A DNA stretch of 55,332 bases from Candidatus Omnitrophota bacterium (GTDB lineage Bacteria > Omnitrophota > Gorgyraeia > 2-01-FULL-45-10): contig JAPLME010000007.1 of NCBI GenBank assembly GCA_026387175.1, positions 192,487 to 247,818 on the forward strand, given 5' to 3'. The notes beneath the pieces are model-generated. The model did no database searches. It was not told where the DNA came from and was given only the letters and a program-made list of their open reading frames with translations. The first letter of the stretch is position 1. Each line of letters opens with the position of its first letter. Shown in pieces: positions 8,623 through 28,804 of the stretch. A program made the translations under genes and the position numbers.

Positions 8623-8700
8623 TGGTCGGGGGGACCAGATTTGAACTGGCGACCCCTTGCACCCCAAGCAAGTGCTCTAGCCGGGCTGAGCCACCCCCCG
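8623..8700 (-). tRNA. tRNA-Pro, anticodon GGG, CCA encoded
   Basis: Read on the minus strand this 78-nt stretch folds as a full cloverleaf. The acceptor stem is CGGGGGG against CCCCCCG, followed by discriminator A and an encoded CCA. The D arm is GCTC/GAGC and the anticodon stem CTTGC/GCAAG encloses loop TTGGGGT, giving anticodon GGG (reads CCC and CCU). The T arm GCCAG/CTGGT encloses TTCAAAT. A promoter lies 40 nt upstream, and hom begins 31 nt downstream, so the tRNA probably heads the threonine operon transcript and must be cut out of it. Confidence 0.96.
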
Positions 8701-9952: not shown

Positions 9953-9990
9953 CGAAAAGATGCTCTCCCTGGGTCGGAAAATCATGCTTA

Positions 9991-10026
9991 TAATAAAACC
10001 CCGGGGGTTATTGTCCGCCCGGGGTT
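9991..10026 (-). terminator. Intrinsic terminator of the 26-aa gene
   Basis: On the minus strand AACCCCGGG and CCCGGGGTT form a perfect 9-bp stem (10026-9997, 12-nt loop) followed by TTTTATTA. It lies 25 nt after the small gene's stop codon and upstream of the gpsA promoter. Confidence 0.85.
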
Positions 10027-10050: not shown

Positions 10051-10131
10051 TTATCTTTTTCTCTTCTTCGCCTTCTTGGTTGTTTTCTTTTTCCTTGCTT
10101 TCTTATGGGCTGCGCATGACATGCATGACAT
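10051..10131 (-). CDS. 26-residue Cys-pair and Lys/Arg-rich peptide, unknown function
   Basis: A free-standing gene too short for normal gene calling. The peptide begins MSCMSCAAHKKA and continues as an almost unbroken run of Lys, Arg, Thr and Ala to the C-terminus, ending KKRKR. It therefore has a repeated M-S-C pair followed by a strongly cationic tail of about 18 residues. AAAGGGGG lies 9 nt before the ATG, a promoter (TTGTCA-17-TATACT) lies 32 nt upstream, and a strong terminator follows 25 nt after the stop, so all the signals of a real monocistronic gene are present. The tail resembles histone H1-like or nucleic-acid-binding tails, and the Cys residues plus His could bind metal. The size recalls tiny ribosomal proteins such as Thx, but the sequence does not match that. 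Function is not known; a small RNA is the alternative. Confidence 0.68.
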   Translation of the reverse strand: MSCMSCAAHKKARKKKTTKKAKKRKR

Positions 10132-10162
10132 ATTTATCAACCCCCTTTCGTTATGTGCATTA

Positions 10163-10191
10163 AGTATACCTTACAATGCCGCTATTGACAA
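10163..10191 (-). promoter_or_regulatory. Promoter of the 26-aa gene
   Basis: On the minus strand TTGTCA (10191-10186), 17 nt and TATACT (10168-10163). Transcription should start near 10156, 25 nt before the start codon, giving a transcript of about 165 nt that ends at the terminator near 9991. The -35 lies 15 nt after the pgi stop codon. Confidence 0.65.
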
Positions 10192-28543: not shown

Positions 28544-28610
28544 AGTTCCCTGTTCTACTAAACCCGTATATGCTGGTATTTCACGTACCAGTCCGCATCG
28601 GCGGAATCAT

Positions 28611-28781
28611 TATATAGGTAGGTCTTCTGACTGGGGAATCATCCTACTCTTCTATGCCTTCTCATCCCGATACAAAAGGACAATGGCCTCTTTAGAATTT
28701 CGTCATCCCCTACAGCGGCGGGACCGTTTCCGTTTAACTTCACTCGGAATTCCCTTTTAAGCCCTCCCGGGCGCCTATATA
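28611..28781 (-). promoter_or_regulatory. Cobalamin riboswitch (AdoCbl aptamer)
   Basis: P1 is formed by TATATAGG (28781-28774) and CCTATATA (28618-28611). The 5' part carries the expected GGGAATTCCGAGTGAA segment and the core GGTCCCGCCGCTGTAG (about 28726-28711). The 3' part carries the B12 box CAGTCAGAAGACCTACC (28633-28617). Downstream of the aptamer a hairpin CTGGTA-7 nt-TACCAG (28592-28574) and the terminator at 28511-28543 make up the expression platform. When cobalamin is bound, transcription of btuB and the genes behind it should stop. The match to the consensus is strong at all conserved blocks. Confidence 0.95.
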
Positions 28782-28804
28782 GCTATATTTCAAAGACAGC
28801 TGCG

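Follow-up and report, generated by a model that had tools for sequence, protein, structure and literature searches.

The window, by which we mean the whole 55,332-nucleotide stretch of DNA that was analysed, carries on its minus strand, between pgi (PF00342) and gpsA (PF01210/PF07479), a gene for a peptide of 26 residues, MSCMSCAAHKKARKKKTTKKAKKRKR (10051-10131; ATG at 10131, TAA at 10053-10051), the frame of which is attested by homologues and by conservation at the codon level. A sigma-70-type promoter with 10 of 12 consensus matches (10163-10191) is located upstream, its -35 box TTGTCA (10191-10186) and -10 box TATACT (10168-10163) being separated by a 17-nt spacer, and the Shine-Dalgarno sequence AAAGGGGG (10141-10148) is placed 9 nt 5' of the ATG. 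Downstream of the frame lies an intrinsic terminator (9988-10026), composed of a perfect 9-bp GC-rich stem, AACCCCGGG/CCCGGGGTT, with a 12-nt loop (10026-9997) and a T-rich tail; the span from promoter to terminator is about 165 nt. All these elements, described in an earlier note on the same DNA, are indeed present, and the interval assigned there to the gene (10051-10191) encloses the promoter, the Shine-Dalgarno site and the frame, but not the terminator. Within the peptide, a C-x2-C-x2-H motif (Cys3, Cys6, His9; 10105-10125) precedes a basic tail of 17 residues (10054-10104), 13 of which are Lys or Arg and the rest Ala and Thr. The doubled Met-Ser-Cys start, to which the earlier note had drawn attention, is real and originates from an exact 9-nt tandem repeat, two copies of ATGTCATGC (10114-10131), but it occurs only in the window copy, other members of the family described below starting with M-C-x2-C. 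Elsewhere on the minus strand of the window are a tRNA-Pro (GGG) gene (8623-8700), situated between a homoserine dehydrogenase-like gene and gpsA, and a cobalamin riboswitch (RF00174, 100 bits; 28600-28793).

The first relative of the peptide, a distant one, came from a direct protein search (L005, MIMCNVCAAHKKKKPKKKSKKK behind AAAGGAGGGG). The DNA pattern C-x2-C-[AG]-x-H-K-K yielded three more members, and a profile built from five members gave seven further ones in the class, with the same short frame and a strong Shine-Dalgarno site. When a 13-row profile was run against 384 genomes of the class, 12 members were recovered at E values from 1.6e-6 to 1.6e-4, while all else lay at E of at least 0.039, leaving a clean gap; those of the weak matches beyond these 12 members that were inspected proved to be chance frames. 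Family f4, when searched, contributed G475 (MCKSCPAHKKKKKK, 14 aa), G488 and G503, and the total stands at 15 species, i.e., the window and 14 further ones, distributed over six families (f1, f4, f9, f20, f26 and f53) of a single class of Omnitrophota. The proteins are 14-26 residues long as a whole (14-22 codons in the 14 further species), carry a Lys/Arg-rich tail and are nearly always preceded by a strong Shine-Dalgarno site. The shortest of them, that of G475 (L133, 14 residues), has GGGGGG ahead of its frame. In the 13-row alignment both Cys and the His are invariant, the consensus reads M-C-[KT]-[TS]-C-[AP]-A-H-[KR]-K-K followed by a Lys-rich stretch, and the window protein displays C-x2-C-[APGS]-[AS]-H-[KR] within its first nine residues.

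A scan of an 84,980-species collection with a strict form of the pattern returned eight matches, five of which are Omnitrophota records with genuine members, and it is from these five records that the name of the host phylum was taken. None of the three matches outside Omnitrophota is a member, each being devoid of a Lys tail, a Shine-Dalgarno site or a short frame, although variants looser than the strict pattern could escape such a scan. Carriage by phages was considered and rejected, as the sole pattern match on a viral contig is a chance frame with neither Lys tail nor Shine-Dalgarno site. We propose that these genes constitute a previously uncatalogued and undescribed family with the signature M-C-x2-C-x2-H-Lys(n). 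A search of whole related genomes for short Lys-rich frames, as advised in the earlier note, was productive, with members in 14 further species, but under the M-C-x2-C start and not under the doubled M-S-C. Individual sequences may already be held, without a family or a name, in catalogues such as GMSC, which accepts frames from 30 nt (PMC11364881). No paper on small Lys-rich proteins of Omnitrophota was found in the literature.

The pattern of nucleotide divergence is that of a coding frame. Over the nine core codons the mean pairwise identity amounts to 0.83, 0.79 and 0.39 at codon positions 1, 2 and 3, respectively, and at the Cys/His motif TGT interchanges with TGC and CAT with CAC, while the residues stay constant. 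In G278 and G488, which belong to one genus and carry the gene at the same place with alignable flanks, the 18-residue peptides are identical and 9 of 57 bases differ, all of them synonymously; the chance of such a pattern is 1.7e-7 under uniform mutation and 5.1e-5 if transitions only are counted, and, while this is a single within-genus pair and a small sample, it agrees with the codon pattern of the whole family. The comparison of synonymous and nonsynonymous changes proposed in the earlier note thus gave nine against none. Since third codon positions vary freely and no amino-acid change accompanies the nine synonymous ones, it is the protein that is under purifying selection, rather than an RNA or a chance frame. 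These codon comparisons demonstrate purifying selection on the frame, the start region and the C-x2-C-x2-H motif in the 15 species, and the window gene almost certainly encodes a translated, selected protein. The distance between promoter and terminator would also suit a small RNA with an incidental frame; however, across genera only the frame is conserved, with variable third positions, the close pair differs at no amino acid, and the window locus has no match in Rfam, so that we consider a small RNA exceedingly improbable.

Signals for expression were found in the other members as well. An AAGGAGG-type site comparable to that of the window stands a few bases ahead of the ATG in nearly every one of them, and a promoter of the form TTGnnA-17-TATA(C/T)T is common to G000, G012 and G016, which belong to one family, and G144, which belongs to another (-35 TTGCAA or TTGCCA, 17-nt spacer and -10 TATACT or TATATT at the matching upstream place in G012, G016 and G144). 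Several other members exhibit no clear promoter and are located 14-84 nt behind a gene of the same strand, so that the peptide gene does not form a transcription unit of its own in every case. A hairpin resembling a terminator lies behind the frame in the window copy and in several, though not all, of the other members. That the window locus is a gene complete in itself, with a very small and basic product, as the earlier note had it, is borne out by the 14 further species, the conserved frame and the synonymous-only divergence.

The earlier note had expected the gene at the same spot, after pgi and before gpsA, in related genomes, which turned out not to be the case. The genus-mates G001 (99% complete) and G002 (96%) yielded no member even in a relaxed motif search, the matches being due to chance; in G001 the gene order at the pgi-gpsA site is different, and nothing is kept there but the start of gpsA. 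To reject the gene on the ground that relatives keep nothing at this spot, as the note had envisaged, would have been an error. Neighbouring genes differ between members, and a shared neighbourhood occurs only in close relatives (G303 and G312; G278 and G488). In the former pair (L087 and L092; family f4) the peptide gene adjoins a MazG-domain gene and is close to DAHP-synthase-like and FKBP-like genes. Around some members, pgi or glycogen genes are found: pgi is upstream in the window and, at a distance of 4 kb, in G016, a transaldolase-PGI fusion (L076, 4267-7983) lies 0.8 kb upstream in G503, and glgB and glgC adjoin the peptide gene in G016 and G012, respectively. This link was noticed post hoc among some 1,500 gene families, is not significant by itself and is not counted as evidence.

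The neighbouring genes bear on two of the explanations. Were the frame a leader peptide, with ribosomes stalling at its Lys or Cys codons and the hairpin controlling the gene downstream, this would account for the Lys-codon runs of the window copy and for the hairpin, similar to a terminator, between them and gpsA; but the genes found downstream vary from member to member (among them gpsA, MazG, and rubrerythrin-like and PAP2-like genes), the one that follows in G278 is encoded on the other strand, and the Cys and His are conserved as residues while their codons vary. The differing downstream genes bring this explanation close to refutation, and we regard it as very improbable. A secreted or host-directed cationic peptide (antimicrobial or signalling), or a small toxin, would be in keeping with the small size, strong positive charge, free-standing position and patchy occurrence, yet the proteins contain neither a hydrophobic or amphipathic stretch nor a signal or leader sequence, and no exporter, immunity or antitoxin gene adjoins them; such a role appears improbable. 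No neighbouring gene hints at a pathway, and the absence of fixed neighbours points to a free-standing accessory factor rather than to a part of an operon-encoded machine.

With 12 of the 384 genomes of the class (about 3%) carrying a member, the family is patchy, a distribution that would fit vertical inheritance followed by frequent loss, and equally an occasional transfer. Where the function of a very small basic protein is known, it is often a ribosomal one, and a ribosomal protein confined to one lineage and buried in rRNA, in the manner of bS22, eL41 or bTHX, would resemble the family in size and basicity. In Borrelia, bS22 is a small rRNA-binding protein with 61% Lys/Arg that remained unannotated until it was seen in a ribosome structure; together with eL41 and mS38 it shares with the family a very short length, a Lys/Arg content of about half or more and a free-standing gene of the kind that annotation regularly overlooks (PMC10618245). 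Unlike the family, however, bS22 has no Cys/His motif, and no Pfam or NCBIfam match to any curated family of such proteins was obtained. Moreover, the patchy presence within one class and the absence from two genus-mates that are 96-99% complete argue against a core ribosomal protein, and no ribosomal genes lie near the peptide gene in the window or in the other members. Of the known ribosomal proteins, bL36 (PF00444) is likewise small and basic with Cys/His metal ligands, but it has four ligands and 37-38 residues, and it was found separately in 16 of the 17 genomes tested, that of the window included; identity with bL36, or its replacement, was accordingly rejected. On balance, we hold the ribosomal explanation to be unlikely.

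Comparison with protein libraries, performed with members of at least 20 residues, agrees with the statement of the earlier note that no family can be recognized. In Pfam there was no match, and the only one in NCBIfam, to VhuU (NF041786), scored 16.4 bits where the cut-off is 70; none of the other long members that were scanned produced it. VhuU, a hydrogenase selenoprotein peptide, carries the nickel ligands C-x2-C-x2-H, and its very small size and C-x2-C/U-x2-H pattern recall the family, so that a detached C-terminus of the large subunit of a [NiFe] hydrogenase, encoded by a gene of its own, was considered. The match is far below the cut-off, though, and both the Cys-Pro context and the N-terminal part are missing. 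In addition, the two hydrogenase-like large subunits above the Pfam cut-off in the genome of the window have their own DPCxxCxxR motif (DPCYCCTER and DPCFSCTDR); a third, NuoD-like one, below the cut-off, is devoid of DPCxxC. As the two hydrogenases above the cut-off keep their own nickel motif, a split subunit of the VhuU type was rejected, its probability being negligible.

In the Protein Data Bank the family profile matched only the metal loop of the N-terminal domain of mercuric reductase (MerA), MTCDSCAAHV, with a non-significant E value of 2.1. The loop, of the HMA type (MxCxxC), resembles the window copy closely (MTCDSCAAH versus MSCMSCAAH), but it is part of a folded 69-residue domain, and most members do not have the M-x-C spacing. 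Membership in the HMA domain, a fold of about 65 residues around MxCxxC, was rejected, the window protein being 26 residues in all and unmatched in Pfam.

What is solidly established about the family, as regards its function, is confined to size, charge and three potential metal ligands. Considering that sites for zinc or another soft metal commonly open with C-x2-C-x2-H, and that Lys tails of this kind bind polyanions, we suggest a small protein with a metal-knuckle head and a polycationic tail that binds nucleic acid, a role for which the earlier note had already cited the tail. In the head, a knuckle around Zn2+ or some other soft metal would be formed by the two Cys and the His, the fourth ligand presumably coming from water, from the N-terminus or, in a dimer, from another copy of the protein. 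The motif probably binds metal, although three candidate ligands within seven residues fall short of a complete classical zinc site, which counts against this reading. The Lys/Arg tail, supposedly unstructured, would bind a polyanion, and its main partner is somewhat more probably nucleic acid than anything else; the target might be an rRNA site, such as other ribosome-bound proteins of tiny size and basic character occupy, or else DNA, the peptide serving as a nucleoid counter-ion. The high Lys/Arg content, similar to that of bS22 of Borrelia, speaks in favour of the proposal. Taken as a whole, this proposal of an undescribed family with such a head and such a tail may well be correct, but we would not press it further.

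The main rival is a soft-metal buffer or chaperone, in which Cu+, Zn2+ or Hg2+ would be stored or delivered while bound to the Cys pair and the His, the poly-Lys tail serving just for solubility or attachment to polyanions. It draws upon the likeness of the M-x-C-x2-C of the window copy to the HMA metal loop and upon the MerA match; but that match is not significant, most members, with M-C-x2-C, have no residue between Met and Cys, no metal-transport gene adjoins any member, and a tail of 10 Lys residues is left without explanation. We therefore find metal buffering rather unlikely. Because patchiness disfavors a core ribosomal role, the metal-headed nucleic-acid binder is retained as the working explanation. 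More tentatively, the family, with members as short as 14 residues, could rank with the smallest conserved metalloproteins known, as a zinc-capped poly-lysine peptide, restricted to its lineage and stable in the ribosome or nucleoid of the ultra-small Omnitrophota.

Standard annotation for the most part leaves out proteins of fewer than 30 residues, and to our knowledge there are few families of that size for which selection is in evidence. The signature proposed here is simple and testable, and, found in a phylum that is uncultured and has ultra-small cells, it offers a concrete target for metaproteomics; if metal and nucleic acid are both bound, the family would come close to the minimum size of a protein with these two abilities.

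A further short frame of the same class, in G036 (L003, 1486-1554), encodes 22 residues, MAKKKAAKKKTTKKKTAKKKKK, behind a perfect Shine-Dalgarno sequence, AAGGAGGTGAG, with a hairpin downstream. Among 57 genomes searched, such Cys-less Lys-rich frames gave just weak matches elsewhere. The frame is short and Lys-rich like those of the family, but has no Cys/His motif, and it may represent another type of tiny Lys-rich protein within the class.
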